From Mailhella massiliensis (GTDB lineage Bacteria; Desulfobacterota; Desulfovibrionia; Desulfovibrionales; Desulfovibrionaceae), in the NCBI RefSeq assembly GCF_900155525.1, contig NZ_LT706952.1:630406-694405 (forward strand): a DNA stretch of 64,000 bases, in the 5' to 3' direction. A model generated the notes under the pieces. That model searched no databases. It was not told the DNA's origin and was given only the letters and a program-made list of their open reading frames with translations. Position 1 is the first letter of the stretch. Each line of letters begins with the position of its first letter. Of the stretch, positions 23,027-35,361 are shown one piece after another. The position numbers and the translations under genes are program-made.

Positions 23027-24973
23027 CTACGGCGTTTCTCTTTCCGCACGGAAGGAAAGAGACATGGTGGAGCCTGCCCCCACGGCGGAATGGGCCTCGA
23101 TATGCCCCTCGTGCAGTTCCACGATATGCCGGGAAATGTACAGCCCCAGGCCGAAGCCGCGGCTCCCCTTGGTGGAGAAGAACGGCTCGAAAATCTTCTT
23201 TCTGTTCTCCTCATCTATGCCGCTGCCGCAGTCCGATACCTCCAGCACCACGCGCCCCTCCTCGCAGCGGCCCTCCAGCACCAGCGCGCGGAAATCCTTC
23301 TCTTCCATGCTGTCCAGCGCGTTGATCATGAGGTTCAGCACCAGTTGTTCCAGAAGCGTGCGGTTGCCCCGCATGGGCAGGCTTTGCGGCAGCAGACTCT
23401 CATCCACCCTTACCGTACGCAGGCGCGGCCTGAGGAAGAAAAGAGCCTCCCGAGCGATGAGGGCAAGGTTCTGACTTTCATACTGCACGGAATCGGGCAG
23501 GGCCAGATGCATGAGGCGGCGCGTGGTGTTCACCGCCCTTTCTCCGTTGCGGTGTATGGCCTTCAGAAGCGGCCGCAGGGGACTTTCTTCCGGGCAGTCT
23601 TCCAGCGCCAGTTCCGCGTTGGCCATGACGATGCCTATGGGATTGTTGATTTCGTGCGCCACCCCGGCGGCCATTTTACCGAGCACGGCCAGCCTTTCCA
23701 TTTCCATGACCTGCCTGTCCAGCCTGCGCCGCTCCGTCATGTCGCGCCCGATGAGGCAGATGGCGTAGGGAGAAGCCTCCATATCGGCCATGAAGAGGTT
23801 GATCTCCAGCACGAGTTCCTTGTCCGTACCCGGGGCCAGAGTGATTTCCCGGCGCAGGGCGCCCTTCTGCGGAATAAGTTCCACAAAGCGTTCCAGGCAT
23901 CCGTTGGTTTCCTGGCAGAGCGCCTCCATAAGCACGGCGCTGTGCCCGCTCTCACCGATATGCAGCACGCTTCGCGCCGCCCTGTTGGAAAGCCTGATCT
24001 GTCCGTCCGCATCCAGCAGAAGGATGATATCCGGCGATTCCTCGATAAGGTCGCGATATTTTCTTTCCGAACGTATGAGCCTGCGCGAGACTTTGCGCAC
24101 CTGTCGCTTGAGCGCGTATATCCAGGTGACCGTGGCGAGAAAAACGCAGAAAAGCAGCGCCGCCGTACAAAGAATATGGTAACGGTACAGTTCCCAGATG
24201 CCGGGCACATACAGCGAACGTCCCAGCCACTTGGAACGCAGAGACTCCACCTCTCCGCTTTCCTCAAGATGTACCAGAGCGCTCGTCATGCGCTCCAGAA
24301 GGCCGGACTGCCGACCCACCATCATGACCATGGGAATACGTTCGAGGGAACCTCCCATCACACGGATATTCTTGTATTTCTTGCTCTGTACGATATGGAA
24401 GGCCATCTCCACGGAACTGGCAATGTAGGCTTCCGCCTCGCCCCCCACCAGACGGTTCAGCGCATTGGTGATGGAATCGGCCTGCACCACGGTGCAGCCC
24501 ATGTCCAGCATCTTGGGAATGTAGGTATCGCCGCGCTGAAGAATGACCCTGCGCCCGGCAAGGTCGCGCTCCATGGTGAACTGATGCTCCTGCCCCGCCA
24601 CCAGAATGGCGCGGTTCAGAGCCAGCGGCGTGACCAGAACATCGGAAAAATCGTTCTTCAAATTGACGGGCAGAAGGCCCACCATGGCGTCGATTTCGCC
24701 GCGCTGAAGCTTCTGTTCCAGTTTCCGCGCGTTGCTCTGCACGAAAACAATATCCATCTTGAGTTCCCGGGCCATTTTCACGCTGAGGTCCACGGCAAGT
24801 CCGAGCAGACCGTCGCGGCTTTCGTTCAGAAAGGAAAGAGGCGCGGAATGAGGAGGCACGCCGATGACGAGCCTCCTCGTTCCGTTTCCCTGACCGGAGG
24901 GAGCGCTCCACAAAAGCGACGGCACAAGACACAGCATCAGAACGGCGACAAGTGCAAAGAACGTACGACGCAT
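23027..24973 (-). CDS. Sensor histidine kinase with periplasmic solute-binding (family 3) domain and PAS domain
   Basis: A 648-aa kinase. The frame opens at 25048, but the ATG at 24973 (MRRTFFALVAVLML) has GAGGAG seven bases upstream and starts a signal/anchor sequence. Order: N-terminal hydrophobic segment (~5-22), periplasmic SBP_bac_3 domain (~35-255), transmembrane helix (~264-288), PAS (~300-412), HisKA with phospho-acceptor His440 in AAGVAHEINNPIG, N box NLMINALDS, G boxes DCGSGID and GFGLGLY. It should sense a small ligand in the periplasm and phosphorylate a response regulator, most likely the NtrC-type protein at 29599-30993, since both flank the sulfotransferase genes (inference). 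It is divergent from the first of these, with shared dyads between them. Confidence 0.9.
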   Translation of the reverse strand: MRRTFFALVAVLMLCLVPSLLWSAPSGQGNGTRRLVIGVPPHSAPLSFLNESRDGLLGLAVDLSVKMARELKMDIVFVQSNARKLEQKLQRGEIDAMVGLLPVNLKNDFSDVLVTPLALNRAILVAGQEHQFTMERDLAGRRVILQRGDTYIPKMLDMGCTVVQADSITNALNRLVGGEAEAYIASSVEMAFHIVQSKKYKNIRVMGGSLERIPMVMMVGRQSGLLERMTSALVHLEESGEVESLRSKWLGRSLYVPGIWELYRYHILCTAALLFCVFLATVTWIYALKRQVRKVSRRLIRSERKYRDLIEESPDIILLLDADGQIRLSNRAARSVLHIGESGHSAVLMEALCQETNGCLERFVELIPQKGALRREITLAPGTDKELVLEINLFMADMEASPYAICLIGRDMTERRRLDRQVMEMERLAVLGKMAAGVAHEINNPIGIVMANAELALEDCPEESPLRPLLKAIHRNGERAVNTTRRLMHLALPDSVQYESQNLALIAREALFFLRPRLRTVRVDESLLPQSLPMRGNRTLLEQLVLNLMINALDSMEEKDFRALVLEGRCEEGRVVLEVSDCGSGIDEENRKKIFEPFFSTKGSRGFGLGLYISRHIVELHEGHIEAHSAVGAGSTMSLSFRAERETP

Positions 24974-25031
24974 GGCAAAACTCCTCGCCATGATAAAACA
25001 CCATGCGCCCTTTTGCCGCAAGGGAAAAAAG

Positions 25032-25080
25032 CGTGCGGTTTTTCGCACACAAGGCTCTTCTCTGTGCGGAAATCCTCACG
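25032..25080. promoter_or_regulatory. Two inverted-repeat sites, candidate enhancer for the ASST regulon
   Basis: Site 1 (25032-25049) reads on the minus strand TGTGCGAAAAACCGCACG. Site 2 (25063-25080) reads on the plus strand TGTGCGGAAATCCTCACG. They share TGTGCG-N6-YKCACG and lie 53-100 bases upstream of the sigma-54 -24 box at 25133. A similar dyad recurs upstream of 27546 and, weaker, upstream of 31191. Confidence 0.6.
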
Positions 25081-25132: not shown

Positions 25133-25148
25133 TGGCACGTTCTTTGCT
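25133..25148 (+). promoter_or_regulatory. Sigma-54 promoter of the first ASST gene
   Basis: TGGCACGTTCTTTGCT matches TGGCACG-N4-TTGCW exactly, 47-62 bases before the ATG at 25195. Confidence 0.88.
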
Positions 25149-25194
25149 AAAGCATGGATAAACACGTTCCGCCTTCAACCACAAAGGAAGATAC

Positions 25195-26655
25195 ATGAAC
25201 CGTCGTCAATTTCTCATGGGGCTGTCCGCGGCCGCTGCCGCCACGGCAGCGCCTTCTTTAAGCTGGGCGTTCCCATCCGTGTTCCCCCACGGCACTACCA
25301 TCTACAAGCCGGAAAAATGCTGGAACGGCTATACCGTGTTCGGTGTGGAAACGGCCGGACAGGGCTGCGTGCTCATCGACATGAACGGCAACGTCGTGCA
25401 TGAATGGAAAAACGTGAACGAGCTCGAACACCCCTCAAAACTGCTCAGGGGCGGTTACATCATGGGCGCCACCCGCCAGAAGCCGGAAATGAAGGGCCGC
25501 ACCTACGGCGACCCCATGTCCGCCGACCTTTCCATCTGCGACTGGAACGGCAAGATCGTACGCAACATTCCCCTTGCGGGTATGCATCACGACTTTCAGG
25601 TGGAAGGCAACCCCACCGGATACCACAGCCCGGACATGCCCGTGGAATACAAGCCGGAAGGCAAAATTCTCGTGCTTTCGCACCTGTTCACCGAAAACCC
25701 GGCCATTACGAAGAAAAAGCCCCTGGACGACGACTATATCTTCGAGATGGACAAGGACAACAACATCATCTGGGACTGGAAGGCCTGCGAGCACTTCGAC
25801 GAGCTGAAGCTCCCCGAAGATCTCAAGAAAACCATGTACAAGTTCCCCACCTGGCAGATGACCCGCACCCCGGGCGTGAAGGCGGCGGACTGGATGCACA
25901 TGAACTCCGCCTCCACCCTCGGCCCCAACCACTGGTATGACGAAGACCCGGTGAAGTACGCGGTCTTCCACCCCGACAACATCATCTGCTCCTGCCGTCA
26001 GCTCAACACCTGCTTCATCATCGACAAGGCGAGCAAGAAAATCGTGTGGCAGATAGGCCCCACCTTCTACCCCGACGACAAGTGGGAATTCGGCGGCAAG
26101 GAATACAAGCGCGCCCTGTACAGGCTCGGCCAGATCGTTGGTCAGCACCACTGCCACATGATTCCCAGGGGCCTGCCCGGAGCAGGAAACATTCTCGTGT
26201 ACGACAACGGCGGCTTCGCCGGCTACGGCGAACGGAACCCCACCTCCCCCATGGGCTGGAGCAACGCACGGCGCGACTATTCCCGCGTCCTCGAGTTCGA
26301 CCCGGTCACGCTCAAAAAGGTGTGGGAGCACTCCGCCGCCACCATGGGCCTGCGCGAAACCTACAAGTTCTACAGCGATTATGTAAGCTCCGCCCAGCGC
26401 CTGCCCAACGGCAACACCCTCATCACCAACGGCGCCGTGGGGCAGTTCCAGGAAGTCACTCCCGATCACGAAATCGTGTGGGAATACATAAGCCCCTGGT
26501 ACAACCCCAACGGCAGATTCAACCTGGTGTACCGCGCCTACCGCGTGCCCTACGACTATGTGCCCCAGCTCAAGAAGCCGCAGGAATTCGCCGTGACCCC
26601 GCCGGAAAACACCACCTTCACCATTCCCGCCAGCAAGACGCCCTACAAGGCATAA
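25195..26655 (+). CDS. Arylsulfate sulfotransferase (ASST) family protein, Tat-exported
   Basis: A 486-aa protein with a twin-arginine leader (MNRRQFLMGLSAAAAATAAP). The mature part is a beta-propeller of the ASST family (PF05935-type), with the characteristic segments DWMHMNSASTLG, HHCHMIPRGLPGAGN and ILVYDNGGFAGYG, and repeated blade endings such as KIVWQIGP, KKVWEHS and EIVWEY. Known ASSTs transfer sulfuryl groups from aryl sulfate donors to phenolic acceptors in the periplasm through a sulfo-histidine, without PAPS. The substrate here is unknown. It is driven by a perfect sigma-54 promoter and followed by two small HhH protein genes. The DsbL/DsbI pair that accompanies enterobacterial AssT is absent. 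Confidence 0.85.
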   Translation: MNRRQFLMGLSAAAAATAAPSLSWAFPSVFPHGTTIYKPEKCWNGYTVFGVETAGQGCVLIDMNGNVVHEWKNVNELEHPSKLLRGGYIMGATRQKPEMKGRTYGDPMSADLSICDWNGKIVRNIPLAGMHHDFQVEGNPTGYHSPDMPVEYKPEGKILVLSHLFTENPAITKKKPLDDDYIFEMDKDNNIIWDWKACEHFDELKLPEDLKKTMYKFPTWQMTRTPGVKAADWMHMNSASTLGPNHWYDEDPVKYAVFHPDNIICSCRQLNTCFIIDKASKKIVWQIGPTFYPDDKWEFGGKEYKRALYRLGQIVGQHHCHMIPRGLPGAGNILVYDNGGFAGYGERNPTSPMGWSNARRDYSRVLEFDPVTLKKVWEHSAATMGLRETYKFYSDYVSSAQRLPNGNTLITNGAVGQFQEVTPDHEIVWEYISPWYNPNGRFNLVYRAYRVPYDYVPQLKKPQEFAVTPPENTTFTIPASKTPYKA

Positions 26656-26767
26656 CCTCCTGCGTAACGGCATCCGCCTTCGCCTCCATCTCTTCCTCCT
26701 CCCTGCGGGGAAGGGGAAGGCGGATGCCCGAACGAATAAAACACTCCAACGCTCTTGCGGAGCCTTT

Positions 26768-27103
26768 ATGAAAAAAACGCTCTCTTCCCTTCTTCTCGGC
26801 GCATTCCTCTGTGCCGCCTCTCCGGCCCTGGCCGAAGACGTGGAACTCGGCCCCGACGCCTTCGACCTGAACAAGGCAACGGCCGAACAGCTCATGGAAA
26901 TTCCCGACGCCAACATCACCCCGGAAATGGCAAACACCATCGTGGACATGGCCAAAAACAAGCCTTTTGAACTTCCTGAAGATTTTCTGAAGGTTCCGGG
27001 ACTGGACAACCATACGCTCCAGGCCATCAATCCCATTGAGCATGATGGCACACTGTGGTACGATCCTGACGCCGAACTGACGCTGGCCCCGTCAAAGTGC
27101 TGA
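26768..27103 (+). CDS. Small exported helix-hairpin-helix protein A
   Basis: A 111-aa protein: Sec signal (MKKTLSSLLLGAFLCAASPA), then a ComEA-like helix-hairpin-helix unit, DLNKATAEQLMEIPDANITP...FLKVPGLDNHTLQAI, and a unique tail DGTLWYDPDAELTLAPSKC ending in Cys. ComEA-type HhH proteins usually bind DNA during uptake, but no competence genes are here; the hairpin may instead mediate protein contacts. It lies 112 bases after the first ASST gene and 21 bases before a second HhH gene. The weak ribosome site GGAG lies close to the ATG. Confidence 0.78.
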   Translation: MKKTLSSLLLGAFLCAASPALAEDVELGPDAFDLNKATAEQLMEIPDANITPEMANTIVDMAKNKPFELPEDFLKVPGLDNHTLQAINPIEHDGTLWYDPDAELTLAPSKC

Positions 27104-27124
27104 TTTTACCGGAGATTTTTATAC

Positions 27125-27436
27125 ATGACCCGTATTGCCGTACCGCTGCTTGCAGTCTGCATCATGACTGCCCCCGCGTATGCCGGGTCTTTCAGCTTCA
27201 ACAGGGCCGGTGCGGAAAAAATGGTGCGCGACTGCGCGGAGGAAGGCGTTACCCTTCCCATGGATGTCGCCAACGCCATCGTAGCGGCGCGTGAGACAAA
27301 ACGCTTCACCACCTCGGGCGACCTTACCGGCATCCCCGGCATGACGGAAGAGCTCATCAAGGAACTCGACCCCATCGAGGAAGAAAACGACCTCGTTTTC
27401 AACCCCAATGCGCTGCCCGGCATGAGATCGTACTAA
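27125..27436 (+). CDS. Small exported helix-hairpin-helix protein B
   Basis: A 103-aa protein with a short signal peptide (MTRIAVPLLAVCIMTAPAYA) and an HhH-like region: PMDVANAIVAARETKRFTT...DLTGIPGMTEELIKELDPI. Like protein A it ends with an acidic then aromatic tail (EENDLVFNPNALPG) that parallels A's DGTLWYDPDAEL, so the two are diverged duplicates sharing an extra C-terminal motif beyond the HhH. GGAG stands 13 bases before the ATG. It is the last gene before a terminator-like hairpin and a second sigma-54 promoter. Confidence 0.75.
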   Translation: MTRIAVPLLAVCIMTAPAYAGSFSFNRAGAEKMVRDCAEEGVTLPMDVANAIVAARETKRFTTSGDLTGIPGMTEELIKELDPIEEENDLVFNPNALPGMRSY

Positions 27437-27466
27437 CAGCATCGCATTCTCTTGCAACAATGCTGC

Positions 27467-27484
27467 TGTGCGACAGACTGCACA
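27467..27484 (+). promoter_or_regulatory. Inverted-repeat site upstream of the second ASST promoter
   Basis: TGTGCGACAGACTGCACA, a near-perfect dyad matching site 1 at 25032-25049 in half-sites and 6-base spacer (ANANAC). It lies 62-79 bases upstream of the -24 box at 27546. Confidence 0.58.
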
Positions 27485-27511
27485 GCAACGTTCTCTGTGC
27501 GGTTGTTTTTT
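27477..27511 (+). terminator. Probable rho-independent terminator after HhH protein B
   Basis: A 9-bp stem (27477-27485 with 27495-27503, one G-T pair) followed by TGTTTTTT. It overlaps the dyad at 27467-27484, so one of the two readings may be incidental. Confidence 0.55.
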
Positions 27512-27545
27512 CATCGTTTATCAAATCAACATGAAAAAATACAAC

Positions 27546-27561
27546 AGGCACATTTTTTGCA
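27546..27561 (+). promoter_or_regulatory. Sigma-54 promoter of the second ASST gene
   Basis: AGGCACATTTTTTGCA keeps GG at -24 and TTGC at -12 with exact spacing, 74-89 bases before the ATG at 27635. Confidence 0.75.
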
Positions 27562-27634
27562 TAGCATCTCCGTATGTATTTCATATGCGGCACAGCTTAT
27601 TTACTTCATCCACACATCAACTAAGGAGTAGTGT

Positions 27635-28927
27635 ATGAACTTCCTGAAGGCTACCTGCACGGCATGTGGACTCGCAGCTCTGCTTCTGGCTTCTTCTGCC
27701 GACGCCAGACCGACCGTCTATCCTACCGGCACCACGATCTTCAACCCTGAAAAGGCCATGAGTAATGTATTTATCATGGCTGTCCACAACGACAGAGTGA
27801 CGATTATGGACCGCAACGGCAACGAGTATCACAGTTGGAAGGTTCCCGCCAACTGGCAAAATCTCCGTGCACGTCTGGATAAAAGCGGCAACCTCCTTCT
27901 TGCCGGTACCGTCATGGATATGAGCTCCACCGCAGCGCTGACCGAAGAACATCCCTCTTATATAGTAGAATTCAGCTGGGACGGTAAAGAAAACTGGCGT
28001 CATGCCGTGCCCAAGGGACTGGACTGGCACAACGACGTGACCAAGCTGAAAAACGGCAACATCGTCTACACCGCCTATTCCGTCATTCCTGAAGAATATC
28101 AGAAAAAAATCAAAGACGTGGAACTGCCTTGGGGAACCTTCAAGCGTAGCGGCGTAAACATGCGCGGCGACGTTCTGCTTGAAGTCAATCCCAAAACGGA
28201 TAAAATTGTCTGGCGTTGGAATACATGGGAACACCTTGACCTGAACAAGTTCTCCCCCGTGTGCCCCAACTCCGACTGGACTCATATGAACAGTATTCAG
28301 GAGCTGCCGGAAAACAAATGGTATGACGGCGGCGACAAGCGCTTCAAGCCCGGCAACCTTCTCGTGAACCCCCGCAACCTCGATGAATTCTACATCATTG
28401 ACAAGGAAACCGGAAAGGTGGTCTGGGCGGGCAACCACTCCTACAAGACCGGTCTTGCTCATTGCCATGAACCTCAGATGATTGAAAAGGGTCTGCCCGG
28501 TGAAGGCAACATCATCTTCTTCGACAACGGCCTCTTTGCCAAGACCAGAGACCGTGTGGGCCTGACGCTGCTCGGCGAACTCAACCCCGTCACCGGCGAG
28601 CTGGAATGGCAGTATGAAAGCAAGGGCTATTCCAACATGCACTTCTTCAGCAAGACCATGGGCTCCGAATCCCGTCTGCCCAACGGCAACACCTTCATTT
28701 CCGAAGACAACACCGGCCGTCTGTTTGAAGTTACCCGTGATGTGAAGAATCCTGAAGGCGGCGAAATCGTCTGGGAATACATGATGCCTACCTACTCTCA
28801 GCGCAGCCGCATCTATCTTGACGACTACTGCCCGCAGTTCAAGCAGATCAAGCGTGTGACCAAGCCCTTCGCCGTGGTTCCTCCCAAGAATGAAGACTTC
28901 CACATCGCTCCCACCATCCAGAAATAA
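27635..28927 (+). CDS. Arylsulfate sulfotransferase (ASST) family protein, Sec-exported
   Basis: A 430-aa protein with a Sec leader (MNFLKATCTACGLAALLLAS, cut near SADA) and the ASST propeller: DWTHMNSIQELPENKW, GLAHCHEPQMIEKGLPGEGN, IIFFDNGLFAKTRD, and blade endings KIVWRWNTW, KVVWAGN and EIVWEY. It is clearly related to the Tat-exported protein at 25195-26655 but diverged and shorter, and it uses a different export route, which suggests a different cofactor or folding need. AAGGAG precedes the ATG. It has its own sigma-54 promoter and is followed by a small exported protein gene. Substrate unknown. Confidence 0.84.
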   Translation: MNFLKATCTACGLAALLLASSADARPTVYPTGTTIFNPEKAMSNVFIMAVHNDRVTIMDRNGNEYHSWKVPANWQNLRARLDKSGNLLLAGTVMDMSSTAALTEEHPSYIVEFSWDGKENWRHAVPKGLDWHNDVTKLKNGNIVYTAYSVIPEEYQKKIKDVELPWGTFKRSGVNMRGDVLLEVNPKTDKIVWRWNTWEHLDLNKFSPVCPNSDWTHMNSIQELPENKWYDGGDKRFKPGNLLVNPRNLDEFYIIDKETGKVVWAGNHSYKTGLAHCHEPQMIEKGLPGEGNIIFFDNGLFAKTRDRVGLTLLGELNPVTGELEWQYESKGYSNMHFFSKTMGSESRLPNGNTFISEDNTGRLFEVTRDVKNPEGGEIVWEYMMPTYSQRSRIYLDDYCPQFKQIKRVTKPFAVVPPKNEDFHIAPTIQK

Positions 28928-28977
28928 CTGACAAGCGGGGCGGAACCGTGTTCCGCCCCGCACCAAGGACAAGTAGT

Positions 28978-29460
28978 ATGAAACTGATTGCTGCCATCAA
29001 AACTTTTGTATTGTTTCTCGCCGTGTGTTCCATGGTTACCCCGGCCCTTGCCGAGGAAAATGAGGATATCACGGCCTATGTCGTCGCTTCCGATACCGTG
29101 TTCAACAGCCTCACCGGTATGAAAAGCTACTGTGAAAACGAAGGCGTACCATTCGTTCAGATCAAGGATAAAAAACAGCTCAAGGACGTGGAGAAATGCC
29201 TCGTCATAGGCAATCCTTCCGAAGAATCTCTGGCCGGCGATATCATTCGTGCCTGCCTGAACGAAAAGGAAATGAAGGATGCCAACACCATGGGCAAAGG
29301 CGTACTGGCTGAAAAAAACTATGAAGGGAAGCAGGTGCTTGTCTTTGCTACGGCATACAGCATCAACACCTTCGTCAAAAGTCACGCCGACGAATGGAAG
29401 GATGTCTTTGAAGCCTGGTATTATATCGCCCGTTCCATAACAAGCATTATCGGCTACTGA
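28978..29460 (+). CDS. Exported protein of unknown function in the ASST cluster
   Basis: A 160-aa protein: Sec signal (MKLIAAIKTFVLFLAVCSMV...PALA), then an alpha/beta-looking domain with alternating hydrophobic strands (ITAYVVASDTVFNSLTGM, VEKCLVIGNPSEESLAGD, GKQVLVFATAYSINTFVKS). It has Cys residues at ~50, 75 and 91. The pattern VIGNP...LAGDII...GKQVLVFA faintly resembles the repeated domain at the N-terminus of archaeal S-layer proteins, but this is not strong enough to name it. It follows the second ASST gene by 50 bases with AAGGA upstream and ends at a strong bidirectional terminator. Confidence 0.7.
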   Translation: MKLIAAIKTFVLFLAVCSMVTPALAEENEDITAYVVASDTVFNSLTGMKSYCENEGVPFVQIKDKKQLKDVEKCLVIGNPSEESLAGDIIRACLNEKEMKDANTMGKGVLAEKNYEGKQVLVFATAYSINTFVKSHADEWKDVFEAWYYIARSITSIIGY

Positions 29461-29503
29461 ACAAAAAATCAGAACTGCTTATTTCATACACATTCGTTAT
29501 GAA

Positions 29504-29540
29504 AAAAGGCCTGCATGAAATCTCGTCATGCAGGCCTTTT
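29504..29540. terminator. Bidirectional rho-independent terminator between convergent genes
   Basis: A 15-bp perfect stem (29504-29518 with 29526-29540) with A-run and T-run flanks. It serves the exported-protein gene on the plus strand and the response-regulator gene on the minus strand. Confidence 0.92.
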
Positions 29541-29598
29541 GATGTTTCACATTATCTACCGAAATCGGTCTGCAGAAGGGCAGGAAAAACGCTGTGCT

Positions 29599-30993
29599 CT
29601 ATCCCTTCCTTTCCATAAGTCCGAACTGTTCAAGCTTGTCGTAAAGCGTTCTTCGGCCTATGCCCAGAAGTTCGGCCGCCTGCGTCTTATTTCCGTTGCA
29701 CAGGGAAAGAGCCTGCTGAAGGGCCTGCACTTCCGCATTGCGTACCGCATCGGAAAGGGAAAGGGGCGTTTCCGGAGCTTCCTGCCCGGAGGCGGACGAA
29801 GAAACAAGAGGGGCGCCGTCCGTAAGCATACCCAGGGATTCGGGCATGAGCCTGTCGCCTTCCGTCAGCAGAAAGGCGCGCTCCAGCACGTTTTCCAGTT
29901 CGCGTATGTTCCCCTTCCACGGCTGACTGTAGAGAATGTTCATGGCCGCCGGGCTTATCTGCGTTACATTGCGGCCGTAGCGCTCGTTGAAACGGTTGAT
30001 GAAGAAGCCGATGAGCGCGGCCAGATCCTCCCGGCGTTCGCGCAGCGGCGGAAGATACAGGGGAATGACGGAAAGACGGTAGAAAAGATCCTCGCGGAAG
30101 CGCCCCGTCTTCACATCCTCTTCCAGCCTGCGGTGTGTGGCGGCAATGAAGCGCACGTTGATGCTCACGCTTCTGTTGCTGCCTACGGGGCGAATCTCAT
30201 GTTCCTGAATGGCGCGCAGAAGTTTGGCCTGCGTGGAGGGCGAAAGCTCGCCTATCTCGTCCAGAAACACCGTGCCTCCCTGAGCTTCCTCCAGAAGGCC
30301 GCGCCTGCTGTTCACCGCACCGGTGAAGGCCCCCTTCACATGCCCGAAAAGCTCGCTTTCCAGAAGCGATTCGGGAAGCGCCGCACAGTCGATGGTGAGA
30401 AAGGGCATATTCCGAAAGGCGCTTGCACGGTGTATGTATTCCGCCAGCCTGCTCTTGCCCGTACCCGTTTCCCCGGTGATGAGGATGGGCACGCTGGTGC
30501 TCGCCACCTTGCGGATGATTTCCAGCATCTGCTTCATGGCAGGACTGTTGTACACCAGAGAAACCGGCCCCTGCTCCTCGCGGGGGCGTTCCTGAAGCTG
30601 GCTGTGCAGGCGGGCGTGTTCCGCCGCACGCTGCACGAGGGCGGCAAGCTCCGCATTGTTCACGGGCTTGGTCAGATAGCTGTAGGCACCGAGCTGCACG
30701 GCCTCCACCGCACTTTCAATGGTGCCCACGCCCGTCATCATGATGAAGGGCAGGCGGGAATTCATGGCGCGAACGCGCCGGAGCACCTCCAGCCCGCTCA
30801 TGCCGGGCATGGAAAGATCGCACACCACCACGTCGATACCGCCTGCGGCGATGCGCGAAAGCGCCCTTTCCCCGGAAAGAACGGTTTCCGTTCTCCAGCC
30901 CTTGCGGGAAAAAAGAAGGGCAAGAATCTCATGCCATTCCGGGTCGTCATCCACCACCAGAATCTGATATCCGCTCTGTTTCTTTTCGCTCAT
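29599..30993 (-). CDS. NtrC-family response regulator (receiver + AAA+ sigma-54 + Fis HTH)
   Basis: A 464-aa regulator. The frame opens at 31143, but the ATG at 30993 (MSEKKQSGYQILVVDDDPEW) gives the normal receiver start. The receiver has the acidic pair DDD, phospho-acceptor Asp in VVVCDLSMPGMSG, and Lys in YLTKPV. The AAA+ domain has GETGTGKS, GAFTGA and GGTVFLDEIGEL. The C-terminal Fis-type HTH is NKTQAAELLGIGRRTLYDKL. It should activate sigma-54 promoters after phosphorylation, probably by the kinase at 23027-24973. The three -24/-12 promoters around it (25133, 27546, 31191), each with an upstream dyad, are the obvious targets (inference). Confidence 0.93.
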   Translation of the reverse strand: MSEKKQSGYQILVVDDDPEWHEILALLFSRKGWRTETVLSGERALSRIAAGGIDVVVCDLSMPGMSGLEVLRRVRAMNSRLPFIMMTGVGTIESAVEAVQLGAYSYLTKPVNNAELAALVQRAAEHARLHSQLQERPREEQGPVSLVYNSPAMKQMLEIIRKVASTSVPILITGETGTGKSRLAEYIHRASAFRNMPFLTIDCAALPESLLESELFGHVKGAFTGAVNSRRGLLEEAQGGTVFLDEIGELSPSTQAKLLRAIQEHEIRPVGSNRSVSINVRFIAATHRRLEEDVKTGRFREDLFYRLSVIPLYLPPLRERREDLAALIGFFINRFNERYGRNVTQISPAAMNILYSQPWKGNIRELENVLERAFLLTEGDRLMPESLGMLTDGAPLVSSSASGQEAPETPLSLSDAVRNAEVQALQQALSLCNGNKTQAAELLGIGRRTLYDKLEQFGLMERKG

Positions 30994-31096
30994 ATCCTTA
31001 CCTTGAGGCCGTTTTAGCGCTGTCATAGTAACGGCAAGACGTGCCCTCGTAAAGAAAAACCCCTGCCGGTACGGCTCTGCGCGGGGAAGGGCACAG

Positions 31097-31114
31097 TGTG
31101 CAGCGCGCCGTACA
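31097..31114 (+). promoter_or_regulatory. Weaker copy of the ASST-regulon dyad
   Basis: TGTGCAGCGCGCCGTACA keeps the half-site layout TGTGCR-N6-CRYACA, 77-94 bases upstream of the sigma-54-like element at 31191. The distance matches the other two promoters. Confidence 0.4.
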
Positions 31115-31190
31115 TTCCCGCCCGTGCGCGCGGCGCGGCCCATATCGCCGTTACATCATAACACATTGTCATCATTCATAATAATGAATT

Positions 31191-31206
31191 TGGAATGATT
31201 CATGCA
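31191..31206 (+). promoter_or_regulatory. Sigma-54-like promoter of the 965-aa protein gene
   Basis: TGGAATGATTCATGCA keeps TGG at -24 and TGC at -12 with correct spacing but lacks CAC and the first T of TTGC. A short dyad ATTCAT-AATA-ATGAAT lies immediately upstream. Confidence 0.5.
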
Positions 31207-31304
31207 TATCTCTTGTGCGGCGGCCTTTCCCCGTTTCCTTCGGCGCACATGAAGGCGGGGAAAGACGCCTCCCGCCAGACACTTCAAACCACAAGGAAGT
31301 TTTG

Positions 31305-34202
31305 ATGAGCAAACTTCTCGTTTCCGGCGTCGCCGCCGCCCTTGTATGCCTTCTCGTTTCCGGCGCGCCGGCCTCGGAAAGTCCGCACGGCCTGGCCCCG
31401 GCGGGCGACATGCCCTTCATTCCCGACCTTGGCGGCCTGCGGCACAAGGCCTTCAAAAACCAGTACGGTCAGCAGCGCAACCTTTCCGAAGCCGTGCTCG
31501 TGCGGCAAAGCTCCGTCAAGGACGGCAAGGCCCTCGTTCCTGCGGGCGGGCTCTGCTACATTTCGGAAACGGAACAGGATGCGGCGCCCTTCAGGCGCGA
31601 TCCGTTCCTTGTTCTCGGGGAACACGCCTATCTGGTGGACAGCAAGGCAGGCGTGCGTACCGTGCGCGACATCTCGCTGAAAAAGGGCCAGAAGGTCACG
31701 GTGGACGATGCAGGCTACCGCCTGTGGTTCGACTACGCCACCGACCACTATGACCTGCCCTATATTCAGATGGCGCTCATCGCCCCTTCGGGCCACTGGC
31801 CCATGGAATTCTCCGTCTCCTCCAAATTCCCGGCCATCAGGGATCTGCCCGACCGCAGCCACATGGAAGGCGACGTGGAGCAGCTTGACGAATTCTTCCT
31901 CGACCCCGTGTTCGAATACGGAGCCAGCCGCTTCGAGGTGAAGGATCATGACTTTGAAATGGCGCATTTCGCCGCCCTTTCCTACCCCGTCATCGAAGAA
32001 GCCACCTTCTCCCTTTCCCGCCCGGTGGTGCTCGACCTCAGGCAGGAGGAGTACCGCCTCTACGGTACGAAACGCATTTACGCCTTCCGCGAGAACGCAG
32101 GCTTCCGCGTGCGCGTGACCGACCTTTCCGGCGACAGGGTGCTGGCGGAAAAGCTGGTGCGTCCCGTAAGCTCCCAGGGCTACAAGGACAGGGATGAGGA
32201 AAAAGACGCCTACAGCCTTACCGTGCCCGGCGAGGACATGCGCATTGAAATAGCCGTGCAGCCGGAATACCTGCGTCATTCCGACTTCATGCCCTGGTCC
32301 ACGGACGTGCCCCACGACTGGCATGACGGCATGTTGAGCCTCGTCGTCTACCGCGACCTCGTCACCGTGAAAAACGGCGAAGCCTGGCCTCTGGACGACC
32401 GCTACACCGTGGGTCTTGAGGCGAATCTTCTCACCGGCAAACTTCAGCGTCTTACCCTGGAAAACGCCGAGGCCTTCACTCTCGACAGCGGCAACGACAG
32501 CTTCGACGGCCCGGTGAAGTATTCCGATATCTGGAACCGCCCGGCCTTCCGCCTGGTGGCCGACGACATCAGAGACGGCAGGGTCTTCAGCTACTATGTG
32601 CGCGACGCCTTCTTCCAGCGCACGGACAACCTTGCCTTCACGGACAAGGGCCGCAGGAATATCGACTGCTTCATCGGCCGCACGCCGACCTTCATTTCCA
32701 TTCTGGAAGACAGCTTCCTCACCCGCCTCGCCACGCCGAAATTCGGTACCGAAGTACAGGGTTCGCACTTCACGTCCTTCCCCTCCGTCATGCCCGACAT
32801 GGCCTTCCACGCGCCCGATCCCACGGCGCCCTTCGGCGGACTCATGCGCGGCTTCGGCCGCGAACAGGTGACCAACCGCCGCGGCGAGAGACTCACCTCC
32901 TCCGAAGGCCTCGTCATACGCGGCAGCTATGTGGACTGGAAGAACAACCGCATCGTGATTCCGCCCTCCGGCCTCTTCTACACCTCGCGCAACGCCCGCA
33001 ACGTGCGCGCGCTGAACGGAGAAACCTTCTACATGCTGGGCCGACGCGCCTATATCGCCACCTTTGAATCCACCACCTTCACGCGGCGCAACTTCGACAT
33101 CGACTTCTGGCGCGTACAGCCCGATGCCAGCCTGCACCCCGTCTACTGGCAGGATCAGCCCCTTGGCGTAAACAACAAGGTGCTGCGTTTCACGGAAAAG
33201 CACCTGCTCGACGACAGGCCCATGGCGCAGATCAACGTGGTGAAGTATTCGGGCAACAACTTCGGCGCGCCCTTCGAACTGGCCCAGGGACTCAGCCGCG
33301 AACAGGGCGACCGCTACTACCTGCACGACCGCTTCGCGGAAGGCGCGACCTGGATCGAGCCGGAATTCGTGGGCGAGGACTATGTGCGCGTGAAGAGCTT
33401 CGGCACCCCGGCCATACAGAGCGTGGAATACACCTATCAGAAGCCCGTGCGCGTGCTGCTCGCCCCCGGCGAGGAAAAGGCCCTCGGCAAACATCACACC
33501 CTGAAGCTTGTCGCCCTGGACGAAGCGGCCGGTACCAGCGAGGTGGAAATCCGCAGAAACGACGGCTCCCTCGTACAGACGAAGGTGCTCGGCCCGCTCA
33601 ATGCCGAAACGCGCGCCTTCCTGCCCCAGCATCAGCGCGTGGTGAATTCCCTGCAGTTCCCCTTCGATGAAGGGAAAAACAGGGTGCTCGCGGAAGTGGA
33701 CGTGAAAACGCCCTTTGAAAAGGGCAAAGCCGCCTTCTACACCTATGTGGACCTGAAAAAACTCGAAAGCGACACTCCCTTCGAGGGCGATCCCCGCTTC
33801 ATGGTACGGCCGGACGTGTGCGGCCACTGTTACCAGCTCAACGAAGTGCTGCTCGACAATCCCGAACCCATCATTCTCGACAGGGAGCATCCCCGCTTCG
33901 ACGGCCCGCTTACCGCCGACGGCAAGCCGCAGTTCAGCATCGTCATCGACAGCTTCGACGGGGAAATGATCCATGCCTGGCACATCGAAACCAATTACCG
34001 CAAGCGCGTGTTCAAAAGCGCCAATCTGGCCTTCCAGCCGCGCAACAACGTCGACGTGCTCATGGGCGTGAACGGTACCATCGAAGGTTTTCTGCGCGCC
34101 TCGCTCATGGAGCGTTCCGCCTGGCAGGAATACTGGCGCACCGGCGCCCATCCCCACCCCGAACGCGGGCTCGACGCATGGCTGAGCCGCAAGTTCCAAT
34201 AG
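31305..34202 (+). CDS. Large exported protein of unknown function with an internal repeat
   Basis: A 965-aa protein starting at the ATG at 31305 (AAGGAAG upstream). It has a Sec signal (~1-24, ...SGAPASE) and no later membrane span, so it is periplasmic or secreted. A segment at ~60-125 (LSEAVLVRQSSVKDGKALVP...LCYISETEQD...LGEHAYLVD) recurs diverged at ~530-600 (SEGLVIRGSYVDWKNNRIVI...LFYTSRNARN...LGRRAYIAT). This suggests two beta-rich modules from duplication. A CGHC motif (Cys839/Cys842) near the C-terminus is the only close Cys pair and may be redox- or metal-active. I do not recognise the family. It is first of a run with a YeiH-like exporter and three small genes, under a sigma-54-like promoter. 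Confidence 0.85.
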   Translation: MSKLLVSGVAAALVCLLVSGAPASESPHGLAPAGDMPFIPDLGGLRHKAFKNQYGQQRNLSEAVLVRQSSVKDGKALVPAGGLCYISETEQDAAPFRRDPFLVLGEHAYLVDSKAGVRTVRDISLKKGQKVTVDDAGYRLWFDYATDHYDLPYIQMALIAPSGHWPMEFSVSSKFPAIRDLPDRSHMEGDVEQLDEFFLDPVFEYGASRFEVKDHDFEMAHFAALSYPVIEEATFSLSRPVVLDLRQEEYRLYGTKRIYAFRENAGFRVRVTDLSGDRVLAEKLVRPVSSQGYKDRDEEKDAYSLTVPGEDMRIEIAVQPEYLRHSDFMPWSTDVPHDWHDGMLSLVVYRDLVTVKNGEAWPLDDRYTVGLEANLLTGKLQRLTLENAEAFTLDSGNDSFDGPVKYSDIWNRPAFRLVADDIRDGRVFSYYVRDAFFQRTDNLAFTDKGRRNIDCFIGRTPTFISILEDSFLTRLATPKFGTEVQGSHFTSFPSVMPDMAFHAPDPTAPFGGLMRGFGREQVTNRRGERLTSSEGLVIRGSYVDWKNNRIVIPPSGLFYTSRNARNVRALNGETFYMLGRRAYIATFESTTFTRRNFDIDFWRVQPDASLHPVYWQDQPLGVNNKVLRFTEKHLLDDRPMAQINVVKYSGNNFGAPFELAQGLSREQGDRYYLHDRFAEGATWIEPEFVGEDYVRVKSFGTPAIQSVEYTYQKPVRVLLAPGEEKALGKHHTLKLVALDEAAGTSEVEIRRNDGSLVQTKVLGPLNAETRAFLPQHQRVVNSLQFPFDEGKNRVLAEVDVKTPFEKGKAAFYTYVDLKKLESDTPFEGDPRFMVRPDVCGHCYQLNEVLLDNPEPIILDREHPRFDGPLTADGKPQFSIVIDSFDGEMIHAWHIETNYRKRVFKSANLAFQPRNNVDVLMGVNGTIEGFLRASLMERSAWQEYWRTGAHPHPERGLDAWLSRKFQ

Positions 34203-34215
34203 GCAGGTAAATACC

Positions 34216-35361
34216 ATGAACGTATCCTACGAAGAACGCCGCCGCTCCTTCCTGAGCTGCCTCTACGGCATGAGCGAAGTCCTGCCCGGTCTGCTGGCCA
34301 TGTTCTTCATCGCGCTGTTTTCCAACAACCTCGCGGGAAGCCCCAATCCCTTCACCCTGGAAAACCTGTTTCACTGGCTCGACAACGTGATCGGCCCGGT
34401 GAACCACCAGCCTCTTTTCCAGATACTCAACTCCAACTTCGTGTGGAATCCCTTCCTTCTGGGACTTGTCATCGGCAACGTGTTCGGCGTGCCGGACTGC
34501 TGGAAGCGCGGGCTTTCCTACATTCACATACTCATGCCCCTCGGCATCATCATGCTGGCGCCGCATTTCGTTTTCAGCCATGCGGAAAAGGCGGGACTGC
34601 CCCTTATTCTCTTCGCCTTCGCCATCATGATTCTCACCTCCGCCCTCACGCTGGCGCTCGGCAGGCTCCTTTCCATGGACGACCGCCACTATTCCACCAT
34701 CGCAGGCGCGCTCTCCACGGGCGACCCCCATGTGGTGGCCATACTCATGCCCATGCTGAAGTCCAAGGGCGGGCAGGTCATCAACGCCCTCTCCTGCATC
34801 CTGCTCTTCGGGCTTGTCGCCTCCTTCCTGCTGCCGGTACTGGGCCGTGCCTTCAACATGGACGATGAGGCCTTCGCCGTACTTTCCGTGTTCGGCATCG
34901 GCAACACGGGGCAGATGTTCAACGCGGCCTTCGGCTACAGCTACGAGGCCGGGCACTGGGCGCACTATGTGGAACCCGTGCGCCACGCCCTCATGCCCGC
35001 AGGTTTTCTGTTCGTGTTCCTCGTCATGTTCCTGCGTGCCCGCATCCGGCGCAACGATGAGAACGTGCACGCCACGCGCGCCCACAGGTCGTTCCCGCTT
35101 TTCATTGCGGTGTTCATCGCGGTCTGGATCGCCGTACAGTTCCATGTGGTGAAGGAACCCGCACACCTTGCGATATTCGAACTTGTGAAGTGGGACTTCT
35201 CCCTTGCGGCCGCCGCGCTGGGACTTTCGCTTCCCCTGCGGGAAATCGCTCAGTGGGGACTGAAGGGACTTATCCTCACCTTCGCCTCGGGCATATTCCG
35301 CATCGTCCTTCTTGCCGCCTGTCTGCTCGCGGCGGCAAAGTTCCACTTCCCGCTCATCTGA
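34216..35361 (+). CDS. YeiH/UPF0324-like membrane protein, putative sulfate/anion exporter
   Basis: A 381-aa integral membrane protein with about ten hydrophobic helices. The conserved-looking stretches LGLVIGNVFGVPDCWKRGL and HYSTIAGALSTGDPHVVAI fit the YeiH/TauZ-like putative sulfate exporter family (PF03601), though the middle (SVFGIGNTGQMFNAAFGY) is diverged. Members near sulfonate-degradation genes are thought to export sulfite or sulfate. Here it lies 13 bases after the 965-aa protein gene, so the two surely act together. Removal of inorganic sulfur anion generated in the periplasm or cytoplasm is a reasonable guess. The family call is moderate; transport of some other anion is possible. 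Confidence 0.65.
   Translation: MNVSYEERRRSFLSCLYGMSEVLPGLLAMFFIALFSNNLAGSPNPFTLENLFHWLDNVIGPVNHQPLFQILNSNFVWNPFLLGLVIGNVFGVPDCWKRGLSYIHILMPLGIIMLAPHFVFSHAEKAGLPLILFAFAIMILTSALTLALGRLLSMDDRHYSTIAGALSTGDPHVVAILMPMLKSKGGQVINALSCILLFGLVASFLLPVLGRAFNMDDEAFAVLSVFGIGNTGQMFNAAFGYSYEAGHWAHYVEPVRHALMPAGFLFVFLVMFLRARIRRNDENVHATRAHRSFPLFIAVFIAVWIAVQFHVVKEPAHLAIFELVKWDFSLAAAALGLSLPLREIAQWGLKGLILTFASGIFRIVLLAACLLAAAKFHFPLI

Follow-up and report, generated by a model that had tools for sequence, protein, structure and literature searches.

The 64,000-nucleotide stretch of the Mailhella massiliensis genome analyzed here (the window) encodes a large exported protein, P0001, which an earlier note had described as a product of unrecognized family with an internal duplication and a CGHC motif. 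The locus raises the question of what this protein is and whether the cysteine pair has a redox function. The features on which the analysis is based are listed in Table 1.

Table 1. Features of the P0001 locus in the window
Feature	Position	Strand	Basis
Histidine kinase with periplasmic SBP_bac_3 sensor	23027..25048	-	
Perfect sigma-54 box TGGCAC-N5-TTGCT before propeller 1	25134..25149	+	
Tat-exported arylsulfotransferase-type propeller 1	25195..26655	+	
Small exported HHH_3 protein	26768..27103	+	
Second small exported HHH-like protein, below Pfam cut-off	27125..27436	+	
Putative sigma-54 box AGGCAC-N5-TTGCA before propeller 2	27547..27562	+	
Exported arylsulfotransferase-type propeller 2	27635..28927	+	
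Small exported protein of unknown family, between propeller 2 and regulator	28978..29460	+	
Sigma-54-dependent response regulator (receiver, AAA, HTH_8), divergent from P0001	29599..31143	-	
Putative sigma-54 promoter of P0001, conserved in Mailhella orthologues	31190..31206	+	
P0001, exported two-repeat protein, 965 aa	31305..34202	+	ORF, profile alignment, hydropathy
Signal peptide, about residues 1–25	31305..31379	+	Hydropathy and alignment
N-terminal repeat, residues 36–483, without the Cys motif and other active-repeat residues	31410..32753	+	
C-terminal (active) repeat, residues 508–942	32826..34130	+	
C839-G-H-C842 motif, aligned to U-x-x-C of half-length paralogues	33819..33830	+	
YeiH-like (PF03601) membrane protein, directly downstream of P0001	34216..35361	+	Pfam, loci inspected

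Results

Gene model and sequence features of P0001

The start of P0001 is assigned to the ATG at position 31305 because it is preceded by AAGGAAG, the signal peptide begins there, and the relatives keep this start; an upstream GTG is an alternative start that would give a protein of 995 aa. An antisense ORF of 977 aa (31284–34217, minus strand) overlaps the gene. It is taken as a shadow of the high G+C content, since the plus-strand protein is what the 53% identical orthologues conserve. The leader is the sole strong 19-residue hydrophobic span (hydropathy of 2.18 at residue 4), and the maximum beyond residue 35 is 0.91. The protein has five cysteines (residues 15, 84, 455, 839, and 842), and C839-G-H-C842 is the only close pair. 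The earlier description of an exported protein with one close cysteine pair and no membrane span after the leader is thus borne out, as is its failure to recognize the family: sequence and profile searches gave no match to a Pfam, NCBIfam, or PDB sequence family. The best family scores obtained with P0001 and profile A3 were regarded as chance matches (SlpA, 12.6 bits against a cut-off of 23; OspA, E about 1; ribosomal L32e, E = 0.72). Heme c attachment at the CGHC motif was also rejected, because the motif is followed by Tyr and does not conform to CxxCH, and paralogues have UATC.

Internal duplication and decay of the N-terminal repeat

BLASTP self-comparison did not detect the repeat. A profile–profile comparison of the N-terminal and C-terminal halves gave a probability of 99.8 and an E value of 7e-28 over 412 columns, aligning residues 36–483 with 508–942. 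The duplication therefore spans the whole protein and is larger than initially claimed; the two segments first noticed, in which LGEHAYLVD aligns with LGRRAYIAT, are its best-kept part. Nothing in the N repeat corresponds to the cysteine pair. Residues that are invariant in all active repeats and lost in every N repeat include R562, N566, K647, N651, C839, C842, E847, W892, H893, and E895, and the N repeats mostly keep structural Gly, Pro, Phe, Asp, and Arg residues. We regard the listed residues as candidates for the active site.

Half-length paralogues with selenocysteine

Relatives of about half the length (about 480–500 aa) exist, and one of them is encoded in the same genome (G000:C27:524390-525748; L002, L083). 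Almost all half-length proteins have one in-frame TGA, which aligns exactly to Cys839; among the half-length loci read, 18 have TGA and two have Cys at this site (G193:C20 and G190:C23). The TGA contexts are RPET-TGA-A-T-C, RPDT-TGA-A-S-C, RPDT-TGA-S-T-C, and IPET-TGA-A-T-C, so that a half-length RPET-[TGA]-ATC stands where P0001 has RPDV-C-GHC. The proteins extend about 100 residues beyond the TGA with high similarity, and the dN/dS ratio of the 60 codons after it is 0.06–0.28, indicating that coding constraint continues. The selB gene scored above the cut-off in all 22 carriers checked, and the M. massiliensis genome has both selB and tRNA-Sec. RNAalifold analysis of 11 loci found no conserved SECIS-like stem after the TGA.

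Given the TGA at the position of Cys839, the constraint past it, selB in the carriers, and tRNA-Sec in this genome, the P0001 motif is, as judged from sequence, the U/C-x-x-C site of a selenoprotein family that is missing from the inventory of 119 families. The P0001 family is absent from the 119-entry selenoprotein table of PMC13188914, and no NCBIfam model matched it. In Desulfomicrobium orale DSM 12838, six known selenoprotein genes and no new ones were reported (PMC12013277). Gene callers that stop at TGA will return shortened half-length proteins, and the family may have escaped notice for this reason. In another family of the phylum (L119, L120, L126, and L127), a small exported protein is encoded directly upstream of the Sec half-length gene; as read in L119 and L127, it contains Cys.

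In a maximum-likelihood tree, for which a midpoint root was used for drawing only, the N repeats, the C repeats, and the half-length proteins form three well-supported groups. The C repeats are closer to the half-length proteins than the N repeats are, and the two half-length proteins with Cys fall inside those with Sec. The simplest reading of these sequence relationships would be one duplication–fusion followed by decay of the N copy.

Orthologues and distribution

The CGHC motif is invariant in 22 of the 22 full-length orthologues examined, and the earlier suggestion to check its conservation is thereby answered; with no confident family match obtained either, neither outcome that the earlier note gave as refuting its reading came about. 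Full-length orthologues are 66–93% identical within the genus, about 54–58% in two other genera of the family, and about 53% in other Desulfobacterota and one Acidobacteria metagenome-assembled genome (MAG), and more distant full-length homologues in G373 and G630 show about 43% identity. The family is sporadic, occurring in 36 of 348 genomes in the class and in 10 of 395 sampled across the phylum. The Acidobacteria MAG (L013; JAFGTD010000278.1) has the full-length homologue, with 53% identity, together with a YeiH-like gene; transfer or mis-binning is possible. A full-length-form match in G373 (G373:C79:48212-49567; L100) was reported with two in-frame TAA codons. A search of the open-access literature found no paper that treats the P0001 family or describes clusters of this kind in sulfate reducers.

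Predicted fold

A model of the C repeat, predicted with the C and N repeats as the alignment, had a mean pLDDT of 78 and a pTM of 0.77. It was nearly all β, with only short or C-terminal helices. The model of full-length P0001 was weak (pLDDT 57, pTM 0.42), and the repeat model was relied on instead. Its best PDB match was the C-terminal DUF1608 domain of a Methanosarcina acetivorans S-layer protein (Foldseek E = 1.2e-6, probability 1.00). The VIA Z score was 10.1 for 227 aligned residues, with an rmsd of 6.5 Å, which is large and refers to a predicted model. The weak full-length model matched the same DUF1608 entry (3u2g) through residues 507–899 (Z = 10.8, 226 aligned, rmsd 6.3 Å) and is used as support only. 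Class II viral envelope proteins were the next matches (Z = 6–8, one sandwich); these scores are taken as shared sandwich topology only.

In DUF1608 proteins, a signal peptide is followed by the domain in one or two copies, and no bacterial example turned up in a 2012 survey (PMC3361143). Neither P0001 nor its homologues matched PF07752 (DUF1608) in Pfam scans, and PF07752 had no match in the M. massiliensis genome at E values up to 1; the Methanosarcina control did match. The repeats thus appear to be DUF1608-like in fold only, because membership by sequence fails. No thioredoxin-family Pfam profile matched P0001 at E values up to 1, and a thioredoxin fold was rejected because the repeat model consists nearly entirely of strands. 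Of the thioredoxin-type character first ascribed to the motif, the spacing stands and the fold does not, since the latter is predicted to be all β.

Gene context and putative sigma-54 regulon

The YeiH-like protein encoded downstream of P0001 is a weak match to PF03601 (59 bits against a cut-off of 232.6). Each of the inspected loci that extends far enough has its gene adjoining the full-length gene and running the same way; the exception is L006, in which the automatic gene call was displaced by an overlapping antisense shadow ORF. Upstream, the two propellers match PF05935 with 92.7 and 38.7 bits (cut-off 24.2), and the DxxHxNS and QH motifs of the propeller 1 group align with those of a solved sulfotransferase (PDB 9kf4). 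The putative sigma-54 box of propeller 1 agrees with the consensus at 11 of 11 positions in four species, and that of propeller 2 at 10 of 11. The box of P0001 agrees at 8 of 11 positions here and at 9 of 11 in six relatives, and it is a conserved block amid an otherwise diverged intergenic region. In random 200-base stretches, a score of 9 was reached in 2.2% and a score of 11 in 0.35%. The two propellers, the two HHH-like proteins, the sigma-54 regulator, and the putative boxes in positions 25195–31143 are likely to constitute a regulon, and P0001 and the arylsulfotransferase-type propellers are assigned to a putative sigma-54 regulon. The earlier idea that P0001 is a periplasmic sensor found no evidence; the sensor of the locus is the separate histidine kinase.

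The half-length gene of M. massiliensis lies after an HHH_3 protein gene and before genes for a Tat-type molybdenum (Mo) oxidoreductase, a 4Fe-4S protein, and a cytochrome b. No named model came close to its cut-off with this Mo oxidoreductase. Half-length genes adjoin these three partners in several genomes, and some have other neighbors, so the link with the Mo oxidoreductase is not universal. An Mo oxidoreductase of the same family adjoins the full-length gene in G277, G304, G373, and G630. The P0001 locus of Mailhella is without it; the oxidoreductase sits elsewhere in the genome with the Sec paralogue. In G630, the whole set stands together: kinase, regulator, two propellers, HHH_3, full-length protein, YeiH-like protein, Mo oxidoreductase, HHH_3, and Fe-S protein. 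The occurrence of the Mo oxidoreductase beside both forms and the complete set in G630 tie the full-length and half-length forms to one process, and HHH_3 exported proteins also accompany both. DUF1573 proteins, whose domain is a listed selenoprotein domain, recur near the full-length gene (L079, L012, L013, and L124), as does an unnamed gene for about 280 aa in some of these loci.

Discussion

Proposed function of P0001

Here, we propose that P0001 acts in the periplasm as a dithiol/selenol redox partner during the metabolism of sulfur compounds, an account that, as a whole, we consider to have a somewhat better than even chance of being correct. Its redox activity is the firmer part. A catalytic redox role of the cysteine pair is favored by selenocysteine standing in for one Cys, by a partner repeat that has lost the motif, and by the coupling to oxidoreductases; the view of the earlier note that CGHC may be redox-active is strongly supported by the invariance of the motif in full-length orthologues and the alignment of its first Cys with TGA-encoded selenocysteine. 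A link with sulfur is proposed from the propellers, the YeiH-like protein, and the way of life of the carriers.

The duplication, the conservation of the motif, the equivalence of TGA and Cys, the decay of the N repeat, the gene context, and the putative promoters come from the computational analysis itself; we infer the location, redox chemistry, direction of flow, partners, and sulfur chemistry of the system as follows. P0001 would be an exported redox protein made of two tandem β-sandwich units resembling the S-layer DUF1608 domain. The C-terminal copy may form the active site with C839-x-x-C842, E847, and W892-H893-x-E895, and R562, N566, K647, and N651 are further candidates, while the N-terminal copy would be a degenerate structural partner. 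In the wider family, single-repeat members probably use selenocysteine in place of the first Cys. The reversible dithiol or selenol–thiol center in the periplasm would relay electrons, or else a sulfur group bound to it, between the exported proteins that handle substrate (the arylsulfotransferase-type propellers and HHH_3) and a membrane-anchored molybdenum/tungsten oxidoreductase. The YeiH-like protein may move a sulfur product across the inner membrane, and the sigma-54 two-component system would switch the gene set on. To our knowledge, no redox chemistry is known for a DUF1608-type fold. A bolder version, which we regard as speculative and rather doubtful, is that this new exported selenoprotein/Cys family on an S-layer-type β-sandwich is the redox heart of an undescribed periplasmic system (propellers, HHH_3, Mo oxidoreductase, and YeiH-like transporter) that draws sulfate or electrons from organic sulfate esters in anaerobes.

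Alternative explanations

A SoxYZ-like sulfur carrier, with the sulfur or sulfo group of the substrate bound covalently to Cys839 (or Sec) for processing by partner enzymes, would suit the YeiH-like neighbor, the known sulfate-reducing lineages among the carriers, and the propellers, which retain the D-x-x-H-x-N-S and Q-H motifs of the solved sulfotransferase. However, nothing in the searches connected P0001 with Sox proteins in sequence or fold, it has no equivalent of SoxY's swinging terminal Cys, and a vicinal pair fits disulfide exchange equally well; this function is unlikely, although it survives best among the alternatives. Some arylsulfotransferases have dedicated Dsb partners, and P0001 could likewise be a thiol–disulfide or metal-delivery helper that matures the exported propellers or the Mo enzyme and takes no part in turnover, as the CxxC spacing and the co-occurrence with exported enzymes might suggest. 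This role appears still less probable, because the predicted fold is not that of thioredoxin, the size of 965 aa and the conserved R/N/K/N/E/W/H/E set are unusual for a Dsb protein, and no DsbB-like partner was found among the neighbors scanned.

Least credible is a structural surface-layer or cell-envelope protein, with tandem DUF1608-like repeats as an outer coat and CxxC as a stabilizing disulfide: the earlier mention of a surface protein agrees with the best fold match (Foldseek E about 1e-6, probability 1.00; VIA Z 10.1–10.8) and with the signal peptide and one or two copies of DUF1608 proteins (PMC3361143), but PF07752 has no sequence match in P0001 or elsewhere in the genome, P0001 has no anchor, its gene occurs once and lies next to metabolic genes that are under a two-component system, and a structural disulfide would hardly account for selenocysteine at this site in the paralogues.

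P0001 and its relatives would be an unrecognized family of redox proteins outside the inner membrane, and they add an apparently unlisted selenoprotein family, with a UxxC center predicted to lie on an S-layer-type fold. The family offers a natural experiment, with active and decayed repeats in one polypeptide and Sec and Cys versions in one genome, and it points to an uncharacterized sulfur-linked gene cluster in gut and sediment anaerobes.

Comparison with known systems

Bacterial UxxC/CxxC selenoprotein oxidoreductases (Sec thioredoxin, DsbG-like, and thiol:disulfide interchange proteins; PMC13188914, Table 1) likewise have U-x-x-C in place of C-x-x-C at one conserved site and likewise come from anaerobic sulfur bacteria rich in selenoproteins. 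Unlike them, the P0001 family is predicted to be all β and not of the thioredoxin fold, has no Pfam or NCBIfam match, and is outside the 119-family table. The DUF1608/PF07752 S-layer tiles of Methanosarcina (MA0829; PDB 3u2g and 3u2h) share with P0001 the signal peptide and, going by the predicted model, a make-up of one or two β-sandwich units, whereas P0001 does not match them in sequence, conserves a Cys/Sec site that is lost in the N repeat, is without a membrane anchor, and is bacterial with a metabolic gene context. Arylsulfate sulfotransferase loci with DsbL/DsbI are known in uropathogenic Escherichia coli. As at the P0001 locus, an exported arylsulfotransferase-type propeller is encoded near a CxxC protein there, whereas the partner at the P0001 locus is not DsbA-like and is, in relatives, also tied to an Mo oxidoreductase and the YeiH-like protein.
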